Assembly (NCBI RefSeq): GCF_003075435.1
Contig: NZ_QCZJ01000007.1
Coordinates: 124,001-188,000 of the forward strand
Direction of reading: 5' to 3'
DNA length: 64,000 bases
Origin: Terrimonas sp.
GTDB lineage: Bacteria; Bacteroidota; Bacteroidia; Chitinophagales; Chitinophagaceae
Within the stretch, counting starts at the first letter, position 1. Each line of letters begins with the position of its first letter. Below the pieces are notes generated by a model. The model was not told the origin of the DNA. It made no database searches and was given only the letters and a program-made list of their open reading frames with translations. Made by a program: the position numbers and the translations under genes. This document shows positions 4,091 to 38,887 of the stretch, one piece after another.

Positions 4091-4540
4091 CTACTGAAAT
4101 GCATATTCCGTTTTTGGTTTTAGTGAAACAGCCGTTTTAACTGAATTTGTTATGAGACAGGCAGATTTTGCTTTTTCCATTACACGGTTGAGTTTTTCTG
4201 TATCTGCTAAAGGATCTTTTAGCTTAACCTCAGGCTCAATTACTGCATGGGGTATCTGGTACCTGTTTTCTATCATTTCCAGCTTACAGGTTGTTTTACA
4301 TTCAAAGCTTTCAAAAGCCAGCTTAAAATTTTCAGCAATGGCAAGAAATGTAGCCATGTAACAACTGTTAATAGCAGCAGCATATAAATGTTCAGGAGAC
4401 CAGATACCCGGCACACCTCCTGAAAATTCAGGTGGTGTTGCGCAGGTAATATTTTCATTTAATCCCGGAGCAGACAGATGCCCGATCCTACCCTCTTTCC
4501 ATTTTACATTTACTTCATAATAATGTTCCTCGTTTGACAT
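4091..4540 (-). CDS. OsmC/Ohr family peroxiredoxin-like protein
   Basis: A 149-residue protein with the OsmC fold signature: N-terminal strands (YYEVNVKWKEGRIGHL), the central helix with SPEHLYAAAINSCYMATF, and a second region ending KAKSACLITNSVKT. The cysteines in NSCY (first) and SACLI (second) are the two expected reactive residues of the OsmC/Ohr thiol peroxidases that reduce organic hydroperoxides. The protein is cytoplasmic. It is the first gene of the cluster OsmC - DUF2892 - DUF3365 - DUF6132, so the cluster probably handles oxidants or reactive sulfur species; that reading is inference from gene content. Confidence 0.88.
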   Translation of the reverse strand: MSNEEHYYEVNVKWKEGRIGHLSAPGLNENITCATPPEFSGGVPGIWSPEHLYAAAINSCYMATFLAIAENFKLAFESFECKTTCKLEMIENRYQIPHAVIEPEVKLKDPLADTEKLNRVMEKAKSACLITNSVKTAVSLKPKTEYAFQ

Positions 4541-4847
4541 AACATTCTAGGTTGAAGTCAATAATATATTCATCAATAAACAGCAGAAGTTATCTGCAAT
4601 TATTGATAGTACAAAGCTGAGGCAGAATAATAAGATAGAATGTTACTTAAGTCACATTAGGGTAATTTTATTTCTCCCTGACTGTAAGATAAGCTGACCT
4701 TCCGCTTACCTGGAAAGCTGTGCTCGGGCAGTTTCCAATCCTTTAACCAAATGTTCATGTGTGATGTGCACTGTTTTAAGACCGGTTAACAGCGCTTTTT
4801 ATTAAGCAGCAAAAGCAAACGCTCAATCATTTTTTTGAGACACTGCT
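4541..4847. other. Intergenic region, possible small remnant
   Basis: No gene of convincing length. On the minus strand a short frame near 4710-4800 reads ...TVHITHEHLVKGLETARAQ... before a stop; it has coding-like composition but no ATG (only GTG) and no recognised relatives, so it may be a gene fragment. The rest likely holds the promoter of the OsmC cluster. Confidence 0.3.
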
Positions 4848-5150
4848 TTAATTCAGATTTATTTCTTTCCGCTTTCGGGAAAAACGGGTGCTGATATTTT
4901 GAGTACCGATAAGATTTCCCTTATCATCAAAATGAGCCCTTACCACAAAAATTCCCTTATCCCATTTATAACGACGGGTTTTCATATCAACTGGCCTTGA
5001 CCGGTAACCTTCACCAAGTATTTTTTTATACCCATCAAGATTTGTGTGATTTAATTTTTTCCACAAATAGGAAAATCTCCAAAACTGGATACAGGTGTAA
5101 ACAACTATTAAAGCACCTAAAGTAATGAGGATGAAGTTTGTCCATTCCAT
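4848..5150 (-). CDS. Small membrane-anchored protein of unknown function
   Basis: From the ATG used here the product is 100 residues, beginning MEWTNFILITLGALIV, with one membrane helix at residues ~5-25 and a basic cytoplasmic part. The C-terminal half is rich in Arg/Lys and ends in strand-forming sequence (GIFVVRAHFDDKGNLIG). A longer start 24 codons upstream is possible but would put charged and Pro-rich residues before the helix. I do not recognise the family. It stands alone between the redox cluster and a small divergent gene. Confidence 0.5.
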   Translation of the reverse strand: MEWTNFILITLGALIVVYTCIQFWRFSYLWKKLNHTNLDGYKKILGEGYRSRPVDMKTRRYKWDKGIFVVRAHFDDKGNLIGTQNISTRFSRKRKEINLN

Positions 5151-5391
5151 ACATATCAGATTTGTGGGCACCATGTACATTTCGTATGGCAGGTACTGCA
5201 ATTTACCCAAAATTGGCTTCACTAATCTTATTGTTTTTTTAAAAAGATGTTAACATACAGGGTAACACTTAAGGCATTCAGGGGATTTTTAGCTGGCTCT
5301 TCATACTAATTTCCAGAAGATGCCGTTATTAACCAGGACATAAAAATACCATATGGTAATTTTTAAGCCTGATAAAATTAAAACGAAAGCC

Positions 5392-5736
5392 ATGACAACA
5401 ATCTCCAACCTGCAACAGATCCTTTCTATTTCTTCTACCCTCACCAAAGAAAACTATACTGATAATATAATGGCATTACAGCTTACCATTCCGGCAAGAC
5501 TCAAAAAACTCATTGCCATTTCAGAGCAAACGCCTTTGGAAAGTGAAATGCGTAGCCTGGTAGAGGAAAATCTGATCTCATCTTACAAAGAACTGCTTGC
5601 AGAGATTATGAGCTTTAATCGCAAACCTGACCAGTCAAAAGCCAAAGATCTTATGAATTGGCTTCGCTGCGAAATTGAAATGGGAATGCTGTTTCTTGAA
5701 GGTATTTACAGGTATACTTCGCGCTATCGTGATTAG
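5392..5736 (+). CDS. Small helical protein of unknown function
   Basis: The ATG gives a protein of 114 residues starting MTTISNLQQILSISS; an in-frame ATG 13 codons upstream is less likely. The sequence is alpha-helical without membrane segments or cysteine motifs and contains LVEENLISSYKELLAEIM and LNWLRCEIEMG-like amphipathic helices (actual MNWLRCEIEMG). I do not recognise a family. It converges on the aminotransferase-reductase fusion gene with only 9 bases between the two stops. Composition looks like normal coding sequence of this genome. Confidence 0.5.
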   Translation: MTTISNLQQILSISSTLTKENYTDNIMALQLTIPARLKKLIAISEQTPLESEMRSLVEENLISSYKELLAEIMSFNRKPDQSKAKDLMNWLRCEIEMGMLFLEGIYRYTSRYRD

Positions 5737-5745
5737 CATTTTAAA

Positions 5746-8451
5746 TCAAACACTATCTTCTACTTTTGCCCTTTTTAACCCAAAACCTTCTTTTTCCATA
5801 ATACAGGATATCTTCCTGATGTTTCCGGTGCTTATTTCGCCAGTAAAATTTGCTGACCGTGGTAAAGAGAAAGCAAGCCCAAAGGTTTCTGCCATACAGG
5901 CAAAACACTCCCCTTCATCAAAAGGAAGAATAACAGACTCCAGGTTTTGCGTTATACCTGCGTACAGGGGAAGCGAGGCTATACCACCTTTTATATATAC
6001 ATAATTATTATCGTGCTGTATTTCGTTGCAAACATTAGATGGAACAGATATATCAACAATAATAGCGCCTTTATTTACATGCTCTTTCTGTAATAATGCA
6101 TTGGTATCGTTAGTGCCAGTAAAAATTATATCAGCGCTGCTTATTGCTTCATGACAAAGTGAATCCGTTACAATAATATCATTGCCCAGCTGAGCAATAA
6201 TATCATCAAATTTTATATCAATATTGTATATATCAAGCAATGCTATTATTTTCTTTGCAAGTTCACTGCTTCCCGACACCTTACGCAGCAATGAGCGGTA
6301 ATGATGCCATGTATCATTATCTTTTTCAAGAGCATGCCTGTAAACAAGAATAAGTTTTTGTGCAGATTGTATCATCTCTTCAGCTATAGAGGAAATGATA
6401 TTGCCCTTTGCGCCTACAAGGCAAACACAAGGCTTCGACCTGTTTGGATTCCTCTCTTTGTACTGATGAAATGCTGCCTGCATAGCAAGTATCGCTGTAT
6501 AAGTGTTGCCTGTAGTAAGCGTGGCATGTGGCGAATGCAGGTGCATTCCACTTTTTGTAATGATGCTTGTAAACTGTCCTAAGCCAATGCTTTTTGCATT
6601 TTTCTGATTTGCAAGATTAACAGCATCCTGTATTTTTTTTACCCATCCGTGCCTGTTGCCCCGACGCAGTAAATGAAAAAAAGACAGGCTGGTGAGCGGA
6701 ATACCCAGGAATACTACAGGAATTGTTGTACCCTCAGCATTGATGAGTGTATCAATATGATAAACCGTAAATTGCTGGTAAATACTTAATTCTTCCAGCA
6801 TCGCAGTTAACGCCTGCTCATCATAATCATCTATAAGATCAACTATACGGCGGATATGCACATTATCAATCGGGTGGCAAATAAACACAGCCGCATTTTC
6901 CGGAAATTCATTGTGCTTTACAGCCGGGGGAAGATGTTTTAAAACAGCATTAGCCGGGAATTTGAGTATGTGACCAAACAGGTAATTTAAATCATGGCTT
7001 TCAATCGCATTGAAGAGCTTACTGAAACCATTTATCAAAAAGCAGGCATCATCTTCAGAAAATTGTATGGAAGGCTGAATACGGAATGATAAAGGATTTG
7101 AAAGCGTAGGCAAAATCCGGATACGCTCCCTGTTTAATAATACAGAAGCAATCCAGTAGCCCAGCATGCCTATATCTTTAAGAAATTTGGTGATAAAAGA
7201 ATTGTGCAGCCTGTCCTCATTAAGTTCTATAGCGCACATCAGGCCTTTTCCTCTTACATCAACCACATACCCGGGAAAAATATTTTTCAAAACTGATAAC
7301 TGCCTGAATAACCAATCTTCCTTTATATGCGCTGTTATATTATTTTCTTCAAATAATTTCAAAAAAAGTAACGCTGCTTTACTGCTGAATGCATCACCGG
7401 CAAAACTTGATGAATGAAATTGAAAAAAGTTTGGCGTATATATTCTATCCGAACAACATAAGGCGCTAAGCTTGGCAATACCTGCGCCGAGCGCTTTACC
7501 AAAACAATACATATCTGCGACAAGTATTTTCCGGTCAAGACAGGAAAAATAACCCGTTCTGTAAAGACCACATTGAATTTCATCGGCAATAACTGGTAGC
7601 CCCCATATTTTTTTTAGTTCACTTACCTGCGATAATAATGTATCACTCAGGCATAGCACTCCTGCCTCCCCCTGAACAGGCTCTATAAACAAACCTATAA
7701 CAGGCAGGTGTTTTTTTTCAACAATTTTATCTGTCTTTTCATCAATAACAAAGTATTTGATAACGTATTCTTCTACATTCTTTTTTAATGCTTCCACATC
7801 CTTGGGCAACGTCAAAGATTTTAAAGCTACCGGGAAAGTATTTTTCAACCAGGCATTACTCATAACAGATAAAGCGCCTAATGTTTTTCCATGAAAGCTT
7901 CCTTCCAAATGCGCGACAGCCGGTGCTGCATCTGTAAGCTTTAACTGGCCGGTAAAAAATTTTATTTCATCAGCACATGTATTTTTCTTTTCAAGATAAT
8001 TAATGGAATAGTATATCTCCTGCCGGATAAGATCAATCTTTCTTTCATACTGAAGCCAGCAAAGCTTTATTGCGACTTCAATAATTTCAGCACCACTGTT
8101 TGCATACTCCACATGCCAGCCTTTAACCCCTGTTTGTGCTTCAGTAAGCTCAGCCAGTTTTTGTGACAACCTGGTTTTACCCGGTTGGTTACTTGCCTGT
8201 ACAAAACAAGGCTCATTAAATGAATGTAATAATGTTTGAACAGATGGATTATTGTGCCCAAGCAGGTTGATGCCATAAGAGCCAACCACATCCAGTACAT
8301 TTATTTTAACGCCATTCTCATCCGTATAAGTCAACCAATCGCCCTGCCCGGATTCATAATACTTATCTATTTTCAGAAACCGGAGCATATGCTCCAACTC
8401 GTGCGCTGACTGTTTCTCCTTTGTAAACATCGGATTGATTTTTGAATACAT
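5746..8451 (-). CDS. Fusion of class III aminotransferase and acyl-ACP reductase-like (AAR) domain
   Basis: A 901-residue two-domain enzyme. Residues ~30-470 are a class III PLP-dependent aminotransferase: NSGAEIIEVA at 118-127, GSFHGKTLGA, the PLP-ring-binding Asp290 in PVIADEIQCG, and the Schiff-base Lys319 in CFGKALGAG. Residues ~521-901 align along their whole length with cyanobacterial long-chain acyl-ACP reductase: GLGQFTSI (623-630), TLTTGNTYTA, nucleotide-binding VGAKGNI (679-685), and FACMAE with Cys852 matching the acyl-accepting Cys294 of the Synechococcus enzyme, 49 residues from the C-terminus there 47. Expected chemistry: acyl thioester to aldehyde by NAD(P)H, then aldehyde to amine (inference). 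Last gene of a five-gene operon; the start overlaps the preceding gene by 89, 68 or 26 bases depending on which of three ATGs is used. Confidence 0.85.
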   Translation of the reverse strand: MYSKINPMFTKEKQSAHELEHMLRFLKIDKYYESGQGDWLTYTDENGVKINVLDVVGSYGINLLGHNNPSVQTLLHSFNEPCFVQASNQPGKTRLSQKLAELTEAQTGVKGWHVEYANSGAEIIEVAIKLCWLQYERKIDLIRQEIYYSINYLEKKNTCADEIKFFTGQLKLTDAAPAVAHLEGSFHGKTLGALSVMSNAWLKNTFPVALKSLTLPKDVEALKKNVEEYVIKYFVIDEKTDKIVEKKHLPVIGLFIEPVQGEAGVLCLSDTLLSQVSELKKIWGLPVIADEIQCGLYRTGYFSCLDRKILVADMYCFGKALGAGIAKLSALCCSDRIYTPNFFQFHSSSFAGDAFSSKAALLFLKLFEENNITAHIKEDWLFRQLSVLKNIFPGYVVDVRGKGLMCAIELNEDRLHNSFITKFLKDIGMLGYWIASVLLNRERIRILPTLSNPLSFRIQPSIQFSEDDACFLINGFSKLFNAIESHDLNYLFGHILKFPANAVLKHLPPAVKHNEFPENAAVFICHPIDNVHIRRIVDLIDDYDEQALTAMLEELSIYQQFTVYHIDTLINAEGTTIPVVFLGIPLTSLSFFHLLRRGNRHGWVKKIQDAVNLANQKNAKSIGLGQFTSIITKSGMHLHSPHATLTTGNTYTAILAMQAAFHQYKERNPNRSKPCVCLVGAKGNIISSIAEEMIQSAQKLILVYRHALEKDNDTWHHYRSLLRKVSGSSELAKKIIALLDIYNIDIKFDDIIAQLGNDIIVTDSLCHEAISSADIIFTGTNDTNALLQKEHVNKGAIIVDISVPSNVCNEIQHDNNYVYIKGGIASLPLYAGITQNLESVILPFDEGECFACMAETFGLAFSLPRSANFTGEISTGNIRKISCIMEKEGFGLKRAKVEDSV

Positions 8452-9592
8452 TAAGCATGGGAATTTTTGTATGAGGAAATATCCATGGATTAAGTTTTTT
8501 CAAAATAGCATGGATTAAAGGTCTTCTGCTCCTTACATAAATAAACCGGTCCTCTGTGCAGGCGCCAATACGTTGCTTCGGATAATAAGAAGTTTGCCCA
8601 AGCACAATTTTTTCACACCTGTTTTCTATAGCAATTTCAACCAATGCATTAAGTAAATTATGATAACTGTCGAACGCATCTTTGTTATGCTTTTTCCCTG
8701 TCCATAAAAAATTTAGTACCCCGTTGTGAATAGTAAACGCAAATACGCAGATTATTTCACTGTTATACATAAATGCAATAAGCTTCAATTCATCTTTGAG
8801 CACTTCAAAAACGTTTTCAAAAAAAACATCATTCAGCGTTTCGAGCTTTACAGCAGTTCTCGACATCACACTTAAATAGTATATGTAAAATTCCTTTCCG
8901 GTGATTTCCTCTTTGCTGATATACCTGATAACAGGTTTGCCTGCAGTAAATAATGCTGAACTGTTATTTGAAACAACAGGAAGTTCCATTCCTGCTTTTT
9001 TCAGCGATGCAATGATTTGCCGCCTGAAATTATGACGCATGCTTTTTAAATAATCATTGTATTGCTCATACTTAACCGGCATCCATGTTGAAGGAATGCT
9101 GTATCCACAGAAGTACCCCTGTTGAAGTAAAGTATCTGAATATTGCAGATCACCGGGTAAAAATTCTTTAAATATTAAGGTATTAGCTTTTGCTTTTACG
9201 GCTATGCCTTCCATAGTTGCAGCAACGGCTTTATATACACTTGTTCGGGCATATTGTATTGTCTGTATGTTTTTATGCGCTGCTGAAATAGGCGTACCAC
9301 AAAAAAGCACCCTGGTTTTAAAAATATGCGGAAATATTTTTTTTATCAATCTTGTCAAGGATTGCACATTTATAAACAAATCGAGATGGATAGTAAAAGC
9401 GCTCAGTACAGCTGTACCCACCATGCGATCCTCATCTTTTATAACCAGGAAATACATATCAGCATCTTCTACACGTGATTTTTGCAATGCCTTAAGAAAA
9501 TGATATGTATGAAAAAGCTCTGCCTCCGGGTTTAGAGAATCCCATTCATGCGGATCAATAGCTTCTATATCATCATATATTTCTGTTTTCAT
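8363..9592 (-). CDS. GNAT/BioF2-like (FemAB-related) acyltransferase
   Basis: A 409-residue protein without signal or membrane helices. It has the double-GNAT layout of the BioF2-like/FemAB-like families: an N-terminal half with LFHTYHFLKALQ and TLIFKEFLPGD, and a C-terminal half with RHNFRRQIIASL, FTIHNGVLNFLWTG, SYHNLLNALVEIAIE and LGQTSYYPKQRIGA. Such enzymes transfer acyl or aminoacyl groups to amines. Next to an enzyme expected to make a fatty amine, N-acylation of that amine is a reasonable guess. Its ATG overlaps the stop of the preceding radical SAM gene in an ATGA, and its own 3' end overlaps the fusion gene, so translation is coupled on both sides. Confidence 0.75.
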   Translation of the reverse strand: MKTEIYDDIEAIDPHEWDSLNPEAELFHTYHFLKALQKSRVEDADMYFLVIKDEDRMVGTAVLSAFTIHLDLFINVQSLTRLIKKIFPHIFKTRVLFCGTPISAAHKNIQTIQYARTSVYKAVAATMEGIAVKAKANTLIFKEFLPGDLQYSDTLLQQGYFCGYSIPSTWMPVKYEQYNDYLKSMRHNFRRQIIASLKKAGMELPVVSNNSSALFTAGKPVIRYISKEEITGKEFYIYYLSVMSRTAVKLETLNDVFFENVFEVLKDELKLIAFMYNSEIICVFAFTIHNGVLNFLWTGKKHNKDAFDSYHNLLNALVEIAIENRCEKIVLGQTSYYPKQRIGACTEDRFIYVRSRRPLIHAILKKLNPWIFPHTKIPMLNVFKNQSDVYKGETVSARVGAYAPVSENR

Positions 9593-11115
9593 ACAGCTTC
9601 AAGCGCAGCAATACGGTTTTGCAAGGGTTGTTCCCTGAAGTTTTTAAATGAAGGGTGACGGAATTTATCTTCATACGTAAGTCCTGGCACGATTCTGCCT
9701 TTGTACGTTGCAATCGCTATTTCCTTAGGACTGTGATGTGTATGTGCAAAATAGAACTGGCGGCCAATTTTTAATCCGCCTATAATAATATTCCAGTAAT
9801 CCTTGTGCCATATAGTTGGCAATGTTCTGAAAGTATTCTTCTGCGCTCTCCTGAAATTCATAATCGTTTTCCAGTACAGGTAGAGCAATTGCCGGTAGTA
9901 TGCTTTCAGTGGCATTTTAGTTGGCATAAGCTGATGCGATAAATCAAATAAACCATGCGCATCAACGGGAACAGTTAATTTGCTTTTTTGGGCATCATAA
10001 TCCATCGCTCCGGGCAACGGCGTAGCAGGAGATATATTTACGTAATATAATTTGGCGTCTTCAATAAACTGCCAGAGTCTGTCCCAGTCTTTTTTTTCGT
10101 AATCTGCTCCAGGTATCAGCGATCCGTAGGTGTCAACTTCATATTTCCGCAATACCTCCACCGCCTTCCTGTTATAATGCGCAGATGATTGCTTATTCAT
10201 ATGTTTCAGCTCTTCGTCTGTAACTCCATCCAAACCTATGAATACCGCTCTGAGCCCCAGCTCCGACCATTCTTTAATAACCTCTTCATTCTCTGCAATA
10301 AAATCTGCACGGGCATAGCATAAATAATGTTTTTCAATTTTATGTTCACGGATAAGGTCAGCCAGTTTTCGCAACCTGCTTTTATTAATAAGAAAGATAT
10401 CATCAACGATATAAACATCTTTAGCTTTAATGGTTAACAACTCTTCAATAATCGATTCAGGAGATCTGCTATAAGGCATACCATCAGTTATTCTCCAGGT
10501 AAAACAAAAATTGCAACGATACCAGCAGCCCCATGTTGTTTTGATGGTAGCAACCGGCTTATGCATAAGGTAATAATATCTATGAGCAAGATGACTGACA
10601 AGTTCCCTTCTTGGTAAAGGAAGCGTATCAGCAGGCGGCATATATTTTCGTTGTGCTGTTTTTACAAGTAACCCCTCGCCTACAGGAATAGCAATACCAG
10701 GAACTTCTATTAAGGGCTGCTTATTATCCAGCGCATCTATTATTTCCGCAAGCAGCAATGTGCCATCACCTATGCCAATAATATCTACAGCAGCATCTGC
10801 AAAATCTTCGGGGTTCAATGTGGCATGCACACCACCTGCTATGGTAATTATATTTTTATCCAGATGCTTAATTTCTCTGAATAGCTTAACTACTTCATTC
10901 GTTCCTGATTTATAACAACTGCTAACCACCACATCAGGGTTAAAGGCTTTTATCCTGTTTAAAAATTTTTTTTCAACCAGGTGATCAAATATCATCACCT
11001 CGTGGTGCAGCAGTTCCGCGGCAATATATTCAAGCTCCAGCGGTTCACATATCATAATATGTTTCAACCCTATGGTATGCTTTGGCACCGGTGGACGAAC
11101 CAATAAAACTTTCAT
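9589..11115 (-). CDS. B12-binding-domain radical SAM enzyme (second of the operon)
   Basis: A 508-residue protein. Residues 1-150 form a Rossmann-like B12-binding-type domain (MKVLLVRPPVPK, AGGVHATLNPEDFADAAVD) and residues ~185-400 the radical SAM barrel, with the [4Fe-4S] motif C197-WYR-C201-NF-C204. The DxHxxG motif for base-off cobalamin is not seen, so true cobalamin binding is uncertain. The ~110-residue C-terminal tail is specific, with helical KAYYRQLLYLYWKTI and HTHHSPKE. Family members methylate, cyclise or couple unactivated carbons, often in lipid and natural-product pathways; no TRAM domain, so it is not a methylthiotransferase. One base separates it from the P450 gene, and it overlaps the acyltransferase gene by 4 bases. 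Confidence 0.85.
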   Translation of the reverse strand: MKVLLVRPPVPKHTIGLKHIMICEPLELEYIAAELLHHEVMIFDHLVEKKFLNRIKAFNPDVVVSSCYKSGTNEVVKLFREIKHLDKNIITIAGGVHATLNPEDFADAAVDIIGIGDGTLLLAEIIDALDNKQPLIEVPGIAIPVGEGLLVKTAQRKYMPPADTLPLPRRELVSHLAHRYYYLMHKPVATIKTTWGCWYRCNFCFTWRITDGMPYSRSPESIIEELLTIKAKDVYIVDDIFLINKSRLRKLADLIREHKIEKHYLCYARADFIAENEEVIKEWSELGLRAVFIGLDGVTDEELKHMNKQSSAHYNRKAVEVLRKYEVDTYGSLIPGADYEKKDWDRLWQFIEDAKLYYVNISPATPLPGAMDYDAQKSKLTVPVDAHGLFDLSHQLMPTKMPLKAYYRQLLYLYWKTIMNFRRAQKNTFRTLPTIWHKDYWNIIIGGLKIGRQFYFAHTHHSPKEIAIATYKGRIVPGLTYEDKFRHPSFKNFREQPLQNRIAALEAV

Positions 11116-11116
11116 A

Positions 11117-12451
11117 TCAGTTCAAAGTTTTTAGCGTGATCAATATGGGTTTATGGGGTTTTAATGTTGAGCCGGATTCTGGTAGCGGTACTTCATCATC
11201 TTCAAGTTCAAAATCAAATTGCTGAACAAATGATGCTAATGTAAGCACAAGCATGGGGGTAGCGAGGTATCGTCCTATACAGGTATGCCTTCCTGCACCA
11301 AAAGGGATATAGCTGTATTTCACTGGCGCTGCTTCAAAACGCTCCGGTATAAAATCAAGCGGGGCCCTCCAATAGGCTGGGTTGCGGTGAAGCGCATAAC
11401 TACTAATAAAAACAGATGCTCCTTTATGTATTGTAATGCCATTTATATAATCATCTTCAAGTGCATCACGAGCTATTGTATGACTCGGAGAATATAATCG
11501 CAATCCTTCTTTAACAACATAGTCAGCATATACAAGATCACTTAAATGATCTGCCCCAACAGGATTACCACCGGTTACCTTCAAGATATCTGCACGCAAA
11601 CAATCCAGCTTATCGCGGTTTTTTGCAAGAAGATATATGATCCACCCCAACCCCACCGCTGCTGTTTCAGTTCCTGCACCCAGGTAAACAATCAGTTCAC
11701 TGCGGAGTTCTTTAATGAATGATACTGAGCCGGCGTGATTTGACTTCTCAATAAGTATATCAATCAGCTTTTCAATATCACCGGTTGAGTTTGTTCTGTT
11801 TTTAAGTATATCTATTGCAAGATTTTCAAAAAAAATAAGGCTGCTGTCATATTTCCTGTCTTTACCGGAAAAATTGGATAAAAAAGGCCGCCAGGGATAT
11901 TTGGAACGCCACAGTATATGCTTTTGTCCTGCTCCAACAAGTGATGCTATGGTTGCACAAATAGCCTTGTTTTCATACCCGAATAATGCCTGAAGCAAAA
12001 TGGCTACATTCATTTCAGCAAAAAGCGCAATAATATCAACTGTTGAATTTTTATAAGCTTTCCATTGGTGCAGATAGTTATGAATATCAGCATTTATATT
12101 AAACAGGTATGTAGTTGTTTTAGCATTACCCAGTGCTTTTGCGTGAAGTTTCCTCATCAGCAACCATTCATCTCCTTCCAATGTACCAAGTGCGTTACCT
12201 ATAATTGCCTTGAGCTGTTGCCAGTAATACCTGCTCTTTATATAATTAGTTTCATTCCTTACCAGTATATGCTGCAACACATCAGCATTGGCAACAGCCA
12301 ATATTTCTCGTCCAGGAAGTTTTACCTCAAAAAAATCGCCATAGGTATCCATTTTTTCGGAAATGAATACAGCAGTGTTTTTTATGAAAGCAGGAAAAAG
12401 ATAATAAGGTGTAGACCTGATGTTATATGATGTTGGTTCGGCTACTCGCAT
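11117..12451 (-). CDS. Cytochrome P450
   Basis: A 444-residue soluble P450 with all core motifs: I-helix GAGTETAAVG (acid-alcohol pair Glu-Thr for O2 activation), K-helix EGLR in VVKEGLRLYSP, the PERF element in DFIPERFEA, and the haem loop FGAGRHTCIG with the axial Cys near residue 391. No N-terminal membrane anchor is present, as usual for bacterial enzymes, and no reductase is encoded nearby, so redox partners come from elsewhere. The motif set resembles CYP4/CYP102-like fatty acid hydroxylases, consistent with a lipid substrate, but the substrate cannot be read from sequence. It is gene two of the operon, 14 bases after the first radical SAM gene and 1 base before the second. Confidence 0.93.
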   Translation of the reverse strand: MRVAEPTSYNIRSTPYYLFPAFIKNTAVFISEKMDTYGDFFEVKLPGREILAVANADVLQHILVRNETNYIKSRYYWQQLKAIIGNALGTLEGDEWLLMRKLHAKALGNAKTTTYLFNINADIHNYLHQWKAYKNSTVDIIALFAEMNVAILLQALFGYENKAICATIASLVGAGQKHILWRSKYPWRPFLSNFSGKDRKYDSSLIFFENLAIDILKNRTNSTGDIEKLIDILIEKSNHAGSVSFIKELRSELIVYLGAGTETAAVGLGWIIYLLAKNRDKLDCLRADILKVTGGNPVGADHLSDLVYADYVVKEGLRLYSPSHTIARDALEDDYINGITIHKGASVFISSYALHRNPAYWRAPLDFIPERFEAAPVKYSYIPFGAGRHTCIGRYLATPMLVLTLASFVQQFDFELEDDEVPLPESGSTLKPHKPILITLKTLN

Positions 12452-12465
12452 ATAAGCTTGCTTGT

Positions 12466-13800
12466 TTAAACAATTCCGGGAGTGATGCCACGATTAATAT
12501 GATTGCGGTAAACCATATTTGTTCCTAATACAAACAACCGCATAAATGGACTTAATCCCGCATCATTCCCACTTAATCTTTTATAAATATTTTTTACGGA
12601 ATACAGCTTTTTATACAAGTCCCAATAGCCGCGCTGCAGGCGTTCTGCCGTCATATTTTTGGGATGAAATACTGCAGAGCCCCCAACATATTTTTGAATA
12701 TCATAATCAAAAATGCGACCCTGTTCTTCTAACTGCCTGTACATAGGTGTACCCGGCACAGGTGTAAGTATATACATGCGCGGCAGGGCGATTTTATTTT
12801 TCATTAAAAATTCAAAAGTCTTTTCAAACACTGTTTCATTATCACCATCTAAGCCAAGGATCATTTCGGTTGATATTTCAATACCGTGTTTTTTAATATT
12901 CAAAAAAGCCTTTTCATAATTATGCGGTTCATTCCATTCCTTTTCCACATGTTCAAGACTTTCAGGATTAATGGTTTCTACACCAAAGGAAAGAATACGG
13001 CAGCCACTTTTGTATGCAAGCGCAAGCATGTCATCGTTTTTGGCAATATGAAGACTGCACTGGCTAACCCAAATAATATTTTCAGGGATCAACGCAGTCC
13101 ACAACTCTTTGCAATAATTAAAATCAACACCTATATTATCATCAATAAAAGCGATATACCTGCTGCCTGATGCTTTTGCCGCTCGTACATCCCTTATCAC
13201 CTGCTCAACAGGCCGCTTACGATAGCTGCGTTTAAAAAATTCTGATATAGAACAGAATGTACAGGGAAAAGGGCAGCCCCGCGTGGCCTGCACCGGGCGC
13301 CAGAATCCATAATATTTTAAATTAAAAGCATTATAGTCAGGAGGTGGAAATAATTTAACATCAGGTACATGGGTCATCGTATATGTTTCCTTTACTTCAC
13401 CTGCGAGGTAATCATCAAGAAAACGCGGCCATACATCTTCTGATTCGCCATTTACAATAACATCCGCATGCTGCCTCGTCCATGAATCATCAAACAAAGA
13501 AATAGCGATACCACCCATTACTACCAGGGAACCTTTTTTCCTGAATATATCAGCTATCTGATAGCCTCTCACAACACCGGCACCTCCCATACCCGTAAGT
13601 CCAACAATATCCCATTGCTCATTCCAGGGAATAGGCTCGGATGTTTCTGAAACAACTCTTACTTCAAAATGCTCTTTAGGAGTAACTGCGCTTAATTGTA
13701 GTAATGTTAGCCCGGGCAAATAGGTTTTGCGCTGAACAATCGGTTTCCCATCGTTGTCCAGCCCCGTGGGGCTTATTAAAAGAATCCGTTTTTTCTTCAT
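12466..13800 (-). CDS. B12-binding-domain radical SAM enzyme (first of the operon)
   Basis: A protein of 444 residues from the ATG (MKKKRILLISPTGLDNDG); a GTG ten codons upstream, at 13830, would also be in frame. The N-terminal ~150 residues form the B12-binding-type Rossmann domain (VGLTGMGGAG, VVMGGIAISLF), followed by the radical SAM domain with RGCPFPCTFC (three Cys of the cluster), FIDDNIGVD and SFGVETINPESL. The C-terminus carries AVFHPKNMTAERLQRGYW, typical of COG1032-type lipid or natural-product radical SAM enzymes. It opens the five-gene operon whose promoter must lie between it and the divergent GNAT-like gene. The two radical SAM proteins in the operon are only distantly alike and so probably act at different steps. 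Confidence 0.85.
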   Translation of the reverse strand: MKKKRILLISPTGLDNDGKPIVQRKTYLPGLTLLQLSAVTPKEHFEVRVVSETSEPIPWNEQWDIVGLTGMGGAGVVRGYQIADIFRKKGSLVVMGGIAISLFDDSWTRQHADVIVNGESEDVWPRFLDDYLAGEVKETYTMTHVPDVKLFPPPDYNAFNLKYYGFWRPVQATRGCPFPCTFCSISEFFKRSYRKRPVEQVIRDVRAAKASGSRYIAFIDDNIGVDFNYCKELWTALIPENIIWVSQCSLHIAKNDDMLALAYKSGCRILSFGVETINPESLEHVEKEWNEPHNYEKAFLNIKKHGIEISTEMILGLDGDNETVFEKTFEFLMKNKIALPRMYILTPVPGTPMYRQLEEQGRIFDYDIQKYVGGSAVFHPKNMTAERLQRGYWDLYKKLYSVKNIYKRLSGNDAGLSPFMRLFVLGTNMVYRNHINRGITPGIV

Positions 13801-13981
13801 ACCCGGTATTTTGAACTCCAGATTCCTCACTTAAGCTACAAACTTTCCACGCAAATAGCAAATATTATTTTTAATTATAATGAATATAAAACCAGGAATT
13901 GTAAAAATTCCACTGCAGGATCATAAAAGATATTAGCAAAGCATTGATGTAGTTTTATTATTTTTAATTAAGACAGGCAAA
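13801..13981. promoter_or_regulatory. Divergent control region of the lipid-type operon and GNAT-like gene
   Basis: This AT-rich stretch must hold the promoters for the five-gene minus-strand operon and for the plus-strand GNAT-like gene. I could not find an exact TAnnTTTG -7 element in either direction. The plus-strand side has a run rich in T and A just before the gene (GTAGTTTTATTATTTTTAA). Confidence 0.4.
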
Positions 13982-15091
13982 ATGGAAATTATAGAAGTTA
14001 CCAATAAAAGCTTGCTGAATCTCTTCCTGGATGCTCCGGGAAACATCCTGAAAAACTATCCTCATTACATCGCCCCTATTCTATCAAACGTAAAGGACAC
14101 GCTGAGCATAAAAAAAAATCCACTGTGGCAGGTTGCAGAAAGAAAACTTTTTGTTGCATTAAAAAAAGGTAAAGCAGCAGGAACAATTGCAGCCATTTAT
14201 CACTCCCAGCATAAGCAGTATAACCCTGAAGATGCCGTTTATTTTGGATATCTCCATTTTGAAAACGATCCGGGATTATTACATGAGCTTGTTAGCGCTG
14301 TAAAAAAATTTGCTTCGGAAAAAAAAGTAAATACATTAATCGGACCGCTCAATCCCAGCCTTAATTATGAACTGGGTATTCTTACCGAAGGTTTTGATAG
14401 TGATCCTTTTTTTATGATGAACTATAATCCTCCTTACTACCCTGCTTTAATAGAAAAGGAAGGAGGAAAAGTCGCGATGGAATTCCTGGCATATAATTAC
14501 CGGCAGGGAATAAAAACAGATAAAATAGAAAGAGTGAGCGGGCTGTTAAAAAACAGGTATAACATCAGCATTGAAAACATCAATTTCAAAAAGTTTGAAG
14601 CTGAAGCAAATGAACTCTGTGAGGTATACAATGATGCTTTTAAAGGGCATTTTGGCTTTATTCCTTTTTCCGAAAAAGAATTTCTCTTTATGGCAAAAGC
14701 ATTGAAACAGATATTAAATCCGCAACTATTGTTTAAAGTTAAACTCAAAGGGGATACAGCAGGATTTATGCTTACCATCCCCAACATAAACCCGGCAGTT
14801 AAACAATTGCATAAGGGCAGGTTAACGCCGTGGGGCATTATAAAATTTATTTACCGGTTAAGAAAAATTGATTCGGCCAAGGTGATGCTTGTGGCTATCC
14901 GTAAGCGCTACCAGGAACTCGGGTTGGGGAGCATATTGTATAGTGAAATGAATGCAAGAACAAAAAAGGCAGGGTACCTGCAGGGAGAAATCAGTTGGAT
15001 TGCAGGAGAAAATAATAAAATGCAAAAAATTACAGAAAGTATTGGAGCGGAGCCTTATAAAAAATATGTTGTTTACCGGTTTAACGTATAA
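13982..15091 (+). CDS. GNAT-like N-acyltransferase family protein
   Basis: A 369-residue protein starting MEIIEVTNKSLLNLFLD. It carries the pattern of a large GNAT-like family: YPHYIAPIL near the N-terminus, GPLNPSLNYELGILTEGFD, MMNYNPPYYPALIEKEGG in the middle, and a C-terminal acetyl-CoA-type fold with RYQELGLGSILYSEM and ESIGAEPYKKYVVYRF. Function in this family is not settled; members are often found beside lipid genes. It is divergent from the radical SAM/P450/aminotransferase operon and shares its ~150-180-base control region, so co-regulation is possible. Its stop lies 5 bases from the stop of the next, convergent gene. Confidence 0.7.
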   Translation: MEIIEVTNKSLLNLFLDAPGNILKNYPHYIAPILSNVKDTLSIKKNPLWQVAERKLFVALKKGKAAGTIAAIYHSQHKQYNPEDAVYFGYLHFENDPGLLHELVSAVKKFASEKKVNTLIGPLNPSLNYELGILTEGFDSDPFFMMNYNPPYYPALIEKEGGKVAMEFLAYNYRQGIKTDKIERVSGLLKNRYNISIENINFKKFEAEANELCEVYNDAFKGHFGFIPFSEKEFLFMAKALKQILNPQLLFKVKLKGDTAGFMLTIPNINPAVKQLHKGRLTPWGIIKFIYRLRKIDSAKVMLVAIRKRYQELGLGSILYSEMNARTKKAGYLQGEISWIAGENNKMQKITESIGAEPYKKYVVYRFNV

Positions 15092-15096
15092 ACGAA

Positions 15097-15663
15097 CTAT
15101 ATTTCTACATCACGGCCGATGCTGTTAATCTCTTCCTCTGGTATATAATTCTTTTTGATACGCACAATATAAATGAGCACCAGAGGATATAATATTGGCA
15201 AAGCGTTTAACACCAGCAAATAGCTATAACTTATGTTGGGAACTAATTCTCTCACTATAAATTGAAACGCAAAAATCATTAATAGGGTAATGATGTATGC
15301 TACTGCAAATAAGCGATAAACGGTTTTAAAAAGATATACAATAAAAGCGGCAACCACAGCCAAAACAAGCAACTGAATAAAAAGCATCATATTACGCGAT
15401 AGCATGTCCGTAATATTAGAAAAGGTAATTACCAAGGAAGAGCATACAAACAAATATATCAGCCTGACTCTCTTTCCATAATTTTGTTTTAAATCTTTTG
15501 CAATAAAGAAAAATAAAGACAGAAAAAGCAATTGCCCAATTACATCGGCAATAATGGCAATGGTATATGATGCATAATAATAATTACATAGTAAGCTCAG
15601 CAACCGGAACATGAATGAAAGTATTCCTACTATTGTAAATATTTTGATTATACGTTCAGACAT
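15097..15663 (-). CDS. Polytopic membrane protein of unknown function
   Basis: A 188-residue hydrophobic protein with about six membrane helices: starts MSERIIKIFTIVGILSF, with later segments around LLFLSLFFFIAKDL, MMLFIQLLVLAVVAAFIVYLF and IITLLMIFAFQFI. A short charged C-terminal tail (PEEEINSIGRDVEI) would be cytoplasmic. I do not recognise a family. It lies 14 bases downstream of the YdjM-type hydrolase gene on the same strand and is probably co-transcribed with it. Confidence 0.65.
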   Translation of the reverse strand: MSERIIKIFTIVGILSFMFRLLSLLCNYYYASYTIAIIADVIGQLLFLSLFFFIAKDLKQNYGKRVRLIYLFVCSSLVITFSNITDMLSRNMMLFIQLLVLAVVAAFIVYLFKTVYRLFAVAYIITLLMIFAFQFIVRELVPNISYSYLLVLNALPILYPLVLIYIVRIKKNYIPEEEINSIGRDVEI

Positions 15664-15677
15664 TTTGTATACTAAGT

Positions 15678-16685
15678 TTATATCCCTTTCACCCTTCTTA
15701 TAAAGCTGGAAACCCTTTCCCTGTTCATATTCTTAAACCGTCCCCTTTGTATTACCAGTTGATTACCTTCGGGCTTATTGAGTAAATAATGAAAGGTAAA
15801 TTTTGCAGCAGGATCCTGCCAGCCGATCTGGCCAAACCTTAATACATTCAACACCAACGTATCACTCCATTTTTCTACAGTATAATACCCGGATGAAAAA
15901 CGGATCAGTTTCAACGCATCATTTTTGTCAGTAACATTGTTTAGCAGGCTGTCATTTCTCTCCACATCATTAAAAACAATCTCGCCTGTTTTATCAAATA
16001 CCGACCTGTAGCCAACTTTATATCCGTCCTCCTGCTTAACCACCACATACCACAATAAACTGTTTAAAATAGTTGGGGTAGTAAAATGTCCTTCCGAAAC
16101 AATATGCTGCCGGTTCAAAGTATTTGCTACTACCTGCTCTACTTTCATCTTATTTGCGAAGGCATAGGTTATGTATATAGTAGTGAGCGCAATAGCGTAT
16201 ACAGCAATTTTTTTTCGGTGTACGTATTTACTTTTTGCCAGTAATAACCATACAAAAGCAATCAACGGCCCGATGGAAAACAACGGATCAGCTACAAAAA
16301 CCAGGTTAAAAGAAAACCTGGTATCGTTAAACGGGTAAAACAATTCAGTACCATACGCATTAAATGCATCAATAAAAACATGCACAAATATATTTACCGA
16401 AAACAGCAGCACATATGTTCGCTTTGCCGCATTATGCCTGTGAAACATTTTACCGGCTATCCATGCCAATAAACAACTCACTACTATGGCAAATACTATT
16501 GAATGTGTAAGCGAGCGATGGGCAACAATATCATCTACTTCATTCAGCCATATACTACCGATAGCATCTATATCAGGAATACTTTGAGCAACAGCGCCTA
16601 ACAGCATTGCTTTTTTACCAAGTTGTTTACCAGCGACAGCTTCACCAATGCACGCGCCCAGAACTATATGTGTAAGAGAATCCAA
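15678..16685 (-). CDS. Membrane-bound metal-dependent hydrolase, YdjM/DUF457 family
   Basis: A 335-residue protein beginning MDSLTHIVLGACIGEA, an N-terminus typical of the family, read from a TTG start; stops lie just upstream in this frame, so no ATG alternative exists. The conserved histidine and aspartate motifs of the YdjM (PF04307) hydrolases are present: SLTHIVLG, SIPDIDAIGS and HRSLTHSIVF, with HVFIDAFNAYG further on. Four to five membrane helices follow (residues ~65-190), then a ~140-residue extracytoplasmic-type domain with beta-rich sequence. Substrate unknown. It precedes a small membrane-protein gene by 14 bases. Confidence 0.82.
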   Translation of the reverse strand: MDSLTHIVLGACIGEAVAGKQLGKKAMLLGAVAQSIPDIDAIGSIWLNEVDDIVAHRSLTHSIVFAIVVSCLLAWIAGKMFHRHNAAKRTYVLLFSVNIFVHVFIDAFNAYGTELFYPFNDTRFSFNLVFVADPLFSIGPLIAFVWLLLAKSKYVHRKKIAVYAIALTTIYITYAFANKMKVEQVVANTLNRQHIVSEGHFTTPTILNSLLWYVVVKQEDGYKVGYRSVFDKTGEIVFNDVERNDSLLNNVTDKNDALKLIRFSSGYYTVEKWSDTLVLNVLRFGQIGWQDPAAKFTFHYLLNKPEGNQLVIQRGRFKNMNRERVSSFIRRVKGI

Positions 16686-34067: not shown

Positions 34068-34892
34068 CTATGCTACTTTCTGCAAAGCATTTAATTCGGT
34101 TTTTGCCTGGCGGCCGTAAGTATAATATATAGCCATGCCTGTAAAGAGCAGCCCGCCCACTATATTTCCGGCAGTAACAATAAGCTGGTTATACAACCAC
34201 CAGTCTGTGATAGATACTTTAGCGCCAAACAGCATTCCGGCTGGAATAACAAACATATTTACAACAGCGTGCTCGTATCCCAAAGCAAAAAATATAAAAA
34301 TGGGAATGCCTGCAGCAAGGATTTTTCCGAGCGTTGATTTAGATGTCATTGCCATTACCACGCCCATACAAACCATCCAGTTACAAAGAATAGCTTTTAC
34401 AAATGCCGCAAATAAACCGGGAGCCCCGTGTTGCGCATAGCCGATCGTTTTCTTCTCTGCAACAGTAACCAGCATTTGATCTATAGCGCCAACGGATGCG
34501 ATTGTTCCTACTTCTGAAGCTGCCGCCCAATACAATACCGCGTATAGCAAACTTCCGATAAGGTTACCTAAGAACACTAATGACAGGTTTTTAAGCATGG
34601 TTGCCCTGCTTATTTTCTTTTCAAAATAAGCGAGGGGTATTAATGCAAAACTTCCGGTTACCAGTTCCAGCCCCAGAATAACGATAATCACAAATCCAAC
34701 AGGAAAAACAATTGCGCCTGTTAATGCAATTTTGGTTTGCGTAACTGCCGCATATGCCAGTGTTACAGAAATGGCAAGCAACGCGCCGGAAAGTATTCCG
34801 CGTATTAAAAGGTCTTTTGTACCTAATGAAGCTTTTGTTACAGCAGCATTCAGCATATTGCCTGCTACTTCTTTTGGAGTTACGTAGTCCAT
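34068..34892 (-). CDS. nirC: Formate/nitrite transporter (FocA/NirC family)
   Basis: A 274-residue channel protein with six helices and family motifs: GILSGALLAISVTLAY, FPVGFVIIVILGLELVTGSF, LVFLGNLIGSLLYAV, KAILCNWMVCMGVVMAM and ALGYEHAVVNMFVIPAGM, with NIVGGLLFTGMAIYYTYG at the end. The hydrophobic His in GYEHAVVNMF is the pore histidine of FocA/NirC channels. The position between nirD and a porin gene points to nitrite uptake. A hairpin lies between it and nirD, so its expression may be partly uncoupled. Confidence 0.9.
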   Translation of the reverse strand: MDYVTPKEVAGNMLNAAVTKASLGTKDLLIRGILSGALLAISVTLAYAAVTQTKIALTGAIVFPVGFVIIVILGLELVTGSFALIPLAYFEKKISRATMLKNLSLVFLGNLIGSLLYAVLYWAAASEVGTIASVGAIDQMLVTVAEKKTIGYAQHGAPGLFAAFVKAILCNWMVCMGVVMAMTSKSTLGKILAAGIPIFIFFALGYEHAVVNMFVIPAGMLFGAKVSITDWWLYNQLIVTAGNIVGGLLFTGMAIYYTYGRQAKTELNALQKVA

Positions 34893-34949
34893 ACAGTTGA
34901 TTTTAAGTGTTGGTTATTATAAAAAAGATTATCAGGACGCATTACAATA

Positions 34950-35003
34950 GTGAGAAGTGAGACATCAGAGGTGAAAGCTCACGTTTACCTCCTCTCTTCT
35001 CAC
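34950..35003 (-). terminator. Hairpin between nirD and the nitrite channel gene
   Basis: GTGAGAAG and CTTCTCAC bracket a longer imperfect stem with GAGGTGAAAG and TTTACCTC. No strong T-run follows, so it may be an attenuator or processing site rather than a full terminator. Confidence 0.4.
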
Positions 35004-35016
35004 GATTAACATAGCG

Positions 35017-35376
35017 CTATTCAACATAGATATACACATTCCCGTTTTCTACTTTTACGGGATAGGTTTTTATACTGCATTCATCTCCGCTCAGGCATTC
35101 ACCTGTAGTTAATGAAAATGTTTTTTTATGAAACGGGCAGGCAATTTTGGGCTCATTATTTTTTGTTCCTATCATGCCGCGGCTCAGCGCCATCTGTTTT
35201 TTATGCGGGCACTCATTTTGTGTAGCATACCATTCATTGCGGCGTGTAAAATAGAAAAGCGCGATTTGCTCATCACCATATTTTACACATACACCTCCAT
35301 TTTCCACCACATCCTCTACACGGCAGGCGGCAAACCAATGAGCGTTTTGTACAGCAGTGTCGTTTTGTTTTATCAT
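35017..35376 (-). CDS. nirD: Nitrite reductase small subunit
   Basis: A 119-residue Rieske-fold protein. Both halves of a Rieske [2Fe-2S] site are intact: CPHKKQMAL (Cys-X-His) and CPFHKKTFSL (Cys-X-X-His), which some enterobacterial NirD proteins lack. The C-terminal KTYPVKVENGNVYIYVE is the usual NirD strand. It is the small subunit of the cytoplasmic NADH-dependent nitrite reductase that makes ammonium. It follows nirB after 49 bases. Confidence 0.93.
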   Translation of the reverse strand: MIKQNDTAVQNAHWFAACRVEDVVENGGVCVKYGDEQIALFYFTRRNEWYATQNECPHKKQMALSRGMIGTKNNEPKIACPFHKKTFSLTTGECLSGDECSIKTYPVKVENGNVYIYVE

Positions 35377-35425
35377 ACTTGCAGAATTGTAATTGTAGAA
35401 AAATGGCAGGCAATCGTATAGCTGC

Positions 35426-37945: not shown

Positions 37946-38134
37946 ATAATGATTTTAAGTGTCAGGAAAAATGGCAAGCAATCAAATTAAAATATAAAAT
38001 ATGTTTATTATAATTAATAATTCATCAATAAAATTAATTATAAATAAAAATATATTGTAAATATAAATGTTTAAGAATTAAATTTTTCTATTTTTATCTA
38101 AATAATATTACATATATATTTTAATAATATTAAA
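37946..38134. promoter_or_regulatory. Divergent control region nirB / sirohaem methyltransferase
   Basis: This region is extremely AT-rich. It contains an inverted repeat with arms at 38004-38018 (TTTATTATAATTAAT) and 38033-38048 (ATTAATTATAAATAAA), differing by one inserted base. It could be a regulator site or a cruciform; in such AT-rich sequence chance is also possible. The Crp/Fnr-type regulator encoded downstream is a candidate binder. Confidence 0.45.
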
Positions 38135-38887
38135 ATGTCAAAACTAATTCTGGTTGGTGCAGGTCCCGGAGATCCGGATTTAATAACATTAAAAGCAATA
38201 AAAGCACTGCAAAAAGCTGATGTGGTATTATATGATGCGCTGGCAAACGAAGCGCTTCTCCAATATGCAGACAAGGCTGCCGTAAAACAATTTGTAGGCA
38301 AAAGATTTGGCTGCCACGCATTAAGTCAATCTGAAATCAACCATCTTATTATTGATTTTGGAAAACGCTACCATAATATCGTACGCTTAAAGGGAGGAGA
38401 TCCTTTTGTGTTTGGAAGAGCGCATGAGGAAATTGTTGCCGCTACTGAGGCAGGTATGGATATAGCAATTGTTCCGGGAATTACCAGCGCTATTGCTGTT
38501 CCTGCATCTAAAATGATACCCGTAACCTGCAGGGGAATTAATGAAAGCTTTTGGGTTGTAACCGGCACCACCCAAACAGGCGATATTTCCAAAGATATTT
38601 ACCTGGCTGCCCAATCATCTGCTACGGTAATAATATTAATGGCCATGAGTAAGCTCGAAACCATTGCCGAAATATTTGCCCAATACGGCAAAGCGGAGAC
38701 CGCCGCTGCAGTTATTCAGAATGGTACATTGCCGAATGAGAAAATGGTAACCGGCAAAGTAAAAGACATTTATTTCAGGGTACAACACGCAGAACTGGAA
38801 AACCCTGCTATTATTATTATAGGTGATGTGGTGAACCTGCAATCTTTGGCGGTGAAGCAATACCTAAATCAGGCTGCTATGATTTGA
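38135..38887 (+). CDS. cobA: Uroporphyrinogen-III C-methyltransferase (SUMT)
   Basis: A 250-residue SAM-dependent methylase. Signatures: LVGAGPGDPDLITLKA at the N-terminus, VVLYDALANE, RLKGGDPFVFGRAHEE and VPGITSAIAVPA. It converts uroporphyrinogen III to precorrin-2, the first step to sirohaem (and cobalamin). No fused CysG oxidase/chelatase part is present. Divergence from nirB fits supply of sirohaem for NirB. The next gene on the strand, a Crp/Fnr regulator, is separated by a long perfect palindrome. Confidence 0.95.
   Translation: MSKLILVGAGPGDPDLITLKAIKALQKADVVLYDALANEALLQYADKAAVKQFVGKRFGCHALSQSEINHLIIDFGKRYHNIVRLKGGDPFVFGRAHEEIVAATEAGMDIAIVPGITSAIAVPASKMIPVTCRGINESFWVVTGTTQTGDISKDIYLAAQSSATVIILMAMSKLETIAEIFAQYGKAETAAAVIQNGTLPNEKMVTGKVKDIYFRVQHAELENPAIIIIGDVVNLQSLAVKQYLNQAAMI

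Follow-up and report, generated by a model that had tools for sequence, protein, structure and literature searches.

Can a bacterium assemble a ceramide-like lipid without serine palmitoyltransferase (SPT)? This question is raised by a group of genes in Terrimonas sp., a member of the Bacteroidota, which lie in a stretch of 64,000 nucleotides (contig NZ_QCZJ01000007.1, positions 124,001 to 188,000, of assembly GCF_003075435.1) that was analysed as a whole and is called the window here. An earlier note on this DNA had described a one-strand operon of five genes, coding for two radical SAM proteins (RS1 and RS2), a cytochrome P450, a BioF2/FemAB-like GNAT-fold transferase (BioF2) and a fusion of a class III transaminase with an acyl-acyl carrier protein (acyl-ACP) reductase. 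The operon was confirmed from the coordinates of the open reading frames (ORFs): all five lie on the - strand where the note had placed them, separated by 14 nt and 1 nt and overlapping by 4 nt and, between BioF2 and the fusion gene, by 89 nt (26 nt if the third ATG of the fusion gene, at 8388, serves as start). Its extent had been underestimated, since the conserved unit reaches past these five genes to a sixth one, at 13982-15091 on the + strand, which codes for a divergently transcribed GNAT protein. From the sequence evidence presented below, we consider it somewhat probable that the product of these six genes is a ceramide-like membrane lipid that is made without SPT and built on a fatty amine.

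Conservation of the six-gene unit

Loci related to the operon were collected in a scan of genome contigs whose query was an alignment of six reductase halves; the single fusion protein as query gave no match. We used the best 80 of 517 confirmed relatives (590 stretches), which represent a top slice and not a census. The two best loci, from a Cryomorphaceae metagenome-assembled genome (MAG) (L017) and a Saprospiraceae MAG (L018), showed the operon order of the window, namely, RS1, P450, RS2, BioF2 and fusion, with a desaturase gene between RS1 and P450 in L017 only and two P450 copies in L018. RS1 (79% identity in L017 and 73% in L018) and RS2 (73% and 69%) were the most conserved operon proteins; identities were 46% (L017) and 40% and 43% (the two L018 copies) for P450, 44% and 42% for the fusion and 34% and 41% for BioF2. 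In both MAGs the GNAT gene, which the earlier note had missed, is kept at its place and is transcribed away from RS1, as in the window; its product shows 47% identity in L018 and 38% identity over a 91-residue fragment in L017, where the contig ends. The L018 contig ends within the fusion gene, and another contig of the same MAG (L036) holds the C-terminal end. The lipid genes of the L017 operon region include a fatty acid desaturase gene and a DUF3419 (BtaA-type) gene, the latter of which sits between GNAT and RS1.

As a control, the 46 ORFs of the window were all compared with the 80 loci. L017 and L018 were each matched by all six genes of the unit and by none of the 40 other ORFs. Across the whole set, matches were obtained for the fusion in 80 loci, for P450 and GNAT in 9 each, for RS1 in 3 and for RS2 and BioF2 in 2 each, while 35 of the 40 other ORFs had no match and 5 had 1 to 4.

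A predicted source of fatty amine

The fusion (5746-8451, - strand; Pfam Aminotran_3, 170 bits; Shikimate_DH, 32 bits) carries the class III transaminase at its N terminus (Pfam domain at residues 32 to 450, which convert to 7102-8358) and the acyl-ACP reductase (AAR) at its C terminus (about residues 519 to 895, which convert to 5767-6897). This is the architecture of TamH-type enzymes. A profile of the reductase half matched 4ppm (E = 8e-49), which we take to be PigE of prodigiosin biosynthesis, and the cyanobacterial acyl-ACP reductase 6jzq (E = 3e-38). PigE also holds an AAR-type reductase and a class III transaminase within one chain, but its domain order is reversed, with the reductase first, and it belongs to another pathway. 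In an alignment of 70 fusion rows (17 of 87 sequences, covering 700 query residues or fewer, had been dropped), the lysine that binds pyridoxal 5'-phosphate (PLP), K319, was kept in 69 rows including that of the window, and the AAR cysteine, C852, was kept in 68, with gaps in the remaining 2. In the nucleotide motif GxxGxxG, G680 and G683 were present in 70 of 70 rows, but the third glycine is not kept (see below).

Passages of PMC9594044 describe catalytic roles for the PLP lysine and the AAR cysteine in TamH-type fusions and report that PtTamH, an enzyme of the biosynthesis of tambjamine YP1, uses NADH and L-Glu to convert C12-ACP to the C12 amine. As described there, PtTamH combines an N-terminal class III transaminase with a C-terminal AAR-type thioester reductase and has both residues. 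Since this architecture and the key residues are present in the Terrimonas fusion, the best prediction by analogy is that it would convert acyl-ACP to an aldehyde and the aldehyde to an amine, and the corresponding proposal of the earlier note is thus supported. Unlike the PtTamH setting, the window operon has no TamA-like ANL-ACP gene, and the partners of the fusion are GNAT, BioF2, P450 and the two radical SAM proteins.

The divergent GNAT is a homologue of YghO

The GNAT shares about 30 to 32% identity over 98 to 99% of its length with its 8 best plasmid matches, two of which are named YghO, and an hhalign comparison with a profile built from 8 YghO or SPT-adjacent proteins gave a probability of 100 (E = 2.3e-63). 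Its predicted structure (pLDDT of 88) shows a tandem-GNAT fold; Foldseek searches with this model returned tandem GNATs of assorted functions, and no meaningful solved relatives were found by sequence. In passages of PMC9386255, the gene for the acyl-CoA N-acyltransferase of dihydroceramide synthesis is given as CC_1154 and as yghO; the evidence cited there concerns Caulobacter, and the wording for E. coli is "might be." The bacterial ceramide N-acyltransferase also goes under the names Aca and bCerS.

We then considered the neighbours of GNAT homologues. On E. coli and Klebsiella plasmids, yghO is accompanied by genes for an alpha-oxoamine synthase, an ACP, an NAD-dependent epimerase and a fatty acyl-AMP ligase. 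An alpha-oxoamine synthase gene lies directly upstream of the GNAT homologue in Aureispira and near it in Pseudomonas veronii, where the intervening genes are unnamed. A close GNAT class (30 to 35% identity, E <= 1e-56) was found in 44 genomes of the family besides that of the window, and an alpha-oxoamine synthase gene of the SPT type adjoins the GNAT gene in all of the best 24 of these 44. SPT over the curated cut-off was found in 3 of 38 relatives, with the GNAT match 203, 93 and 44 nt from the SPT match; in one of these three genomes, a second SPT has no GNAT listed beside it. In the window, no SPT-type gene was found in the operon or the scanned flanks. SPT linkage of the GNAT is a usual companionship and not a strict requirement. 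Because of the homology to YghO and the SPT-type neighbours of close homologues, a role in N-acylation is predicted for the GNAT; the N-acylation step proposed in the earlier note thereby stands, mainly by way of an enzyme outside its gene set. A GNAT tree was also built, which left out 16 of the 24 SPT-adjacent and 5 of the 12 fusion-linked GNATs.

Radical SAM proteins, P450 and BioF2

RS1 (12466-13830, - strand; Pfam Radical_SAM, 68 bits) ends in a DUF4070 tail (27 bits), and RS2 (9589-11115, - strand; Radical_SAM, 64.7 bits) carries a B12-binding domain (59.3 bits). In alignments, CxxxCxxC was present in both, and both matched the HpnJ and BchE models. The best curated match of RS2 was HpnR (TIGR04367), the hopanoid C-3 methylase; RS2 resembles this B12-binding radical SAM enzyme over residues 1 to 422, but its score of 213.7 bits is far below the family cut-off of 650. 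P450 (11117-12451, - strand; Pfam p450, 217 bits) carries ExxR and FGAGRHTCIG in alignments.

BioF2 (8363-9592, - strand; Pfam FemAB_like, 36.9 bits) gave a predicted structure with a mean pLDDT of 67 and no meaningful solved relatives by sequence; a homologue in the locus L099 discussed below matched Acetyltransf_6 (37 bits). The earlier note had assigned N-acylation to this protein. The homology to ceramide N-acyltransferases lies with the GNAT, and BioF2 may instead be a second acyl- or aminoacyl-transferase.

Two plasmid clusters in which a class III transaminase gene is paired with a BioF2-like gene were inspected but discounted. That of Nostoc sp. C052 (L014:3671-17918) also codes for a nitric oxide synthase oxygenase, a desaturase, an acyl-CoA dehydrogenase, a formyltransferase and a DevBCA-type exporter, and that of Agrobacterium larrymoorei (L015:7741-13505) codes for an arginase and a hydrolase next to the transaminase and a BioF2-like GNAT.

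Alpha-oxoamine synthases and loci with other gene sets

The genome from which the window comes (G000) codes for two alpha-oxoamine synthases, of 342 and 300 bits, both below the SPT (NF047600) cut-off of 640. Since this cut-off was passed by only 3 of 38 relatives, a divergent SPT may still be present in this genome. About 5.3 kb beyond the window end lies a gene (G000:C7:193320-194456) for an alpha-oxoamine synthase, which we presume to serve perhaps a housekeeping sulfonolipid; enzymes of its kind were listed for almost all of the relatives searched. Genes for ACP, acyl-ACP synthetase or epimerase were not found among the ten genes scanned at 4091-16685, and no genome-wide search for them was made.

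At E <= 1e-90, RS2 was found in 2 of 395 genomes of the phylum, that of the window and G517, which holds locus L099; within the taxonomic order of G517 it was found in 1 of 114 genomes, with no second carrier. L099 contains homologues of RS1 (55% identity), RS2 (46%), BioF2 (23%), P450 (22%) and GNAT (24%; E = 1e-43). It showed no fusion match and has an alpha-oxoamine synthase gene between RS2 and BioF2, whose product scored best with BioF, Kbl-type and SPT models. In this single case, one PLP enzyme for long-chain amines would appear to replace another, as a ceramide-like pathway predicts.

A further set of homologues was observed in Acetoanaerobium noterae (L108:2648-10676), where RS1-like (41%), RS2-like (35%), BioF2-like (27%) and GNAT-like (26%) genes lie in one run of seven together with a methyltransferase gene and two additional genes for B12-binding radical SAM proteins. 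With its four radical SAM genes of the RS1/RS2 type, this run resembles a version of the operon that does without oxygen. A Citrobacter portucalensis plasmid cluster (L107:7462-18848) codes for a GH3-type protein, five RS1-like radical SAM proteins, an N-acetyltransferase, a PAP2 phosphatase and a fatty acid desaturase and likely constitutes a separate lipid pathway.

Proposed pathway and alternatives

In the pathway that we propose, the fusion would convert acyl-ACP by way of a fatty aldehyde to a long-chain primary amine, as its TamH-type architecture suggests, and the GNAT would N-acylate this amine as the bacterial ceramide synthase does a sphingoid base. P450 would hydroxylate a chain, RS2 would most likely methylate an unactivated carbon, RS1 would act on the same lipid in a second radical reaction and BioF2 would add a further acyl or aminoacyl group. 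Formed, according to this prediction, by transamination of a fatty aldehyde, the amine would contain no serine carbons. The earlier note had suggested a lipid amine or lipoamide as the product; the predicted product is better called ceramide-like.

To our knowledge, known bacterial ceramide pathways all start with SPT. Passages of PMC9386255 and PMC11334938 agree with SPT as the start, and those of PMC9386255, on Caulobacter and E. coli BL21, list SPT, AcpR, AasR, an epimerase and the N-acyltransferase CC_1154/YghO as parts of the pathway. The window operon resembles this pathway in the use of a homologue of the YghO-type N-acyltransferase; it differs in having no genes for SPT, ACP, acyl-ACP synthetase or epimerase and in its additional radical SAM and P450 genes. 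The fusion itself is an already known kind of enzyme. For the set of genes, the earlier note knew of no characterised pathway, and we found no description of it in the open-access literature (without most subscription papers). The parts are of known kinds; their combination joins a ceramide-synthase homologue to a fatty-amine-making fusion and two radical SAM proteins and represents a new variant.

Several points weigh against a ceramide-like lipid as the product. Gene content, conservation of order, homology and linkage were computed, while every reaction and the product itself are inferred. The full-length homology of the GNAT is that with YghO, the one of the two named N-acyltransferases, CC_1154 and YghO, that was used in the comparison. 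A GNAT homologue was found at E <= 1e-12 in 282 of 294 genomes of the family, most of those listed having less than 30% identity, and the family is so broad that homology does not fix the substrate. The SPT model was applied to one of the 24 SPT-type neighbours (that in G006), which passed the cut-off. In the nucleotide motif of the fusion, the third glycine is replaced by I686 in the window and is present in 32 of 70 rows. Of the genes scanned in the operon and its flanks, none was recognised as a head-group gene. DUF3419 had no match in the window genome, and a BtaA-type head group was rejected for this organism. As for L099, its alpha-oxoamine synthase is below the cut-off of all 18 models that it matched and need not be an SPT, and its GNAT gene is convergent with the operon. 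In L108, there was neither a P450 match nor a fusion, an alpha-oxoamine synthase or any other gene that could be recognised as amine-making.

The locus is also rare. The earlier note had named lack of conservation in relatives as what would refute its proposal; the gene order is kept in two other Bacteroidota (L017 and L018) but not in close kin, since among 294 genomes of the family that of the window was the only one with a fusion match at E <= 1e-60. Moreover, no other genome among the 395 of the phylum sample had a fusion match at E <= 1e-35, and no other among 12 of the genus had a BioF2 match at E <= 1e-5. The locus may move between lineages.

Could the amine instead become part of a small molecule that is secreted? 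A tambjamine- or prodigiosin-like alkylamide, acting as a signal or antibiotic, with the amine tail from the fusion joined to an oxidised head, would fit the fact that PtTamH, the characterised relative, is described as making the tambjamine tail, that the distantly related PigE serves prodigiosin and that other distant fusions are found in varied gene settings (e.g., L011 and L009). We nevertheless regard such a product as unlikely: among the 30 of 46 window ORFs scanned, there was no match to nonribosomal peptide synthetases, polyketide synthases or a pyrrole pathway, none of the six genes codes for a transporter, the conserved partner of the fusion is a ceramide-synthase homologue and related fusions adjoin phospholipid-type genes.

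It is quite improbable, in our estimation, that GNAT, P450 and the radical SAM proteins tailor an existing sulfonolipid or other aminolipid while the amine from the fusion is used elsewhere. The genome does keep an alpha-oxoamine synthase (about 300 bits) of the kind listed for nearly all relatives, presumably with a role in sulfonolipids, and a distant paralogue of the GNAT (G000:C18:60343). However, this second GNAT could itself serve the housekeeping lipid, and GNATs of this family occur near the fusion in loci of more than one phylum. Modification of hopanoids, with RS2 as an HpnR-type methylase and RS1 and the transaminase as side-chain enzymes, is suggested by the HpnR, HpnJ and BchE matches but is very improbable and largely refuted because no cyclase was found (SQHop_cyclase_N [PF13249], 0 of 1, none in the window genome); RS2 is also far under the HpnR cut-off, and we know of no place for an acyl-ACP reductase domain in the hopanoid pathway.

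Related fusions in other phyla

The ceramide-like lipid proposed for the six genes may have counterparts elsewhere. A full fusion ORF was present in 63 of the 80 loci, and genes near the fusion were of the PPDK type (23 loci), UbiA-like (16), CarS-like (14), for GNATs of the present family (14) or for DUF3419 (2). The fusion-linked GNATs of these wider loci, although remote, are clearly related to YghO (E = 4e-41). In a quick tree of the 70 rows, made without bootstrap and with long branches, the three operon fusions formed a clade (support of 100) inside a 19-row clade with fusions of Bdellovibrionota (support of 99). Five control flanking genes of the locus L022 recurred in 8 to 9 loci, nearly all of them Bdellovibrionota, and an ABC ATPase recurred in 15. 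Since control genes also recur, co-occurrence within Bdellovibrionota is partly plain synteny and these loci are not independent; any claim for a wider occurrence must therefore be based on the loci from other phyla.

PPDK-type genes were found by the fusion in ten such loci (L038, L040, L041, L053, L055, L059, L062, L069, L074 and L080), labelled as Myxococcota, Pseudomonadota, Planctomycetota, Riflebacteria, Ozemobacter, Endobugula or uncultured. The two ORFs lie within 52 nt of each other or overlap by up to 44 nt in 9 of the 10. Pfam confirmed PPDK_N in 6 of 6 genes tested and the CarS-like assignment in 3 of 3; two of four UbiA-like genes passed the cut-off, one was under it and one had no match. 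Phosphatidylserine (PS) decarboxylase was found in L055 and CDP-alcohol phosphatidyltransferase in L053, L041 and, under the cut-off, L080. Clusters of this kind resemble pathways to a phosphorylated lipid that bears a head group and whose backbone would, we infer, start from the amine of the fusion.

It is conceivable, though we hold this view only tentatively, that a class of ceramide-like lipids on fusion-made fatty amines, without a glycerol or serine-derived backbone, exists across several phyla and is finished in lineage-specific ways. These might include PPDK-type phosphorylation, CarS-type CDP activation and the action of CDP-alcohol transferase and PS decarboxylase; a BtaA-type head could be another and, in some Bacteroidota, remodelling of chains by two radical SAM proteins and P450.

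Some individual loci deserve mention. The fusion stands with PPDK-type, UbiA-like and CarS-like genes and a CDP-alcohol transferase or PS decarboxylase gene at L053:8108-21158, L055:8299-20829 and L041:8273-21188, and in L055 (Candidatus Endobugula sertula) it is split into two ORFs. In Candidatus Ozemobacter (L074:3724-11194), an RS1-like gene (31%), a PPDK-type gene and the fusion gene lie in a row, linking both kinds of cluster. By eye, the 1,395-residue transaminase-AAR fusion of Leisingera (L011:9860-14047) has a C-terminal extension resembling an adenylating enzyme, and that of Paraburkholderia phymatum (L008:9647-12589) has an ACP-like N-terminal extension. On two Rhodobacterales plasmids (L010 and L012), the fusion lies near a gene for a VPLPA-CTERM protein and, in L010, also near exosortase XrtD.

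Start sites and flanking features

The GTG start of RS1 at 13830 is probably too early, since homologues align only from residue 11, which corresponds to an ATG at 13800, the likelier start. Candidate starts of the fusion are 8451, 8430 and 8388. RS1 and GNAT are separated by a divergent intergenic region (13831-13981); in the region scanned, neither promoter-like sites nor terminators were commoner than in shuffled sequence. To look for an insertion site shared within the genus, the surroundings of YdjM (15678-16685), which lies beyond the GNAT gene, were compared; YdjM had a match in 9 of 12 genomes of the genus, and in five YdjM regions (one of them only 8 kb, at a contig end) no other window ORF was matched nearby. 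Farther away, genes for a formate/nitrite transporter, a nitrite reductase-type protein and a tetrapyrrole methylase (34068-38887) look like an ordinary nitrite assimilation locus.

Significance of the operon

The operon offers two radical SAM enzymes that probably act on a lipid. If the proposed pathway is true, the association of a ceramide-synthase homologue with a maker of fatty amines would constitute a second origin of ceramide-like lipids.

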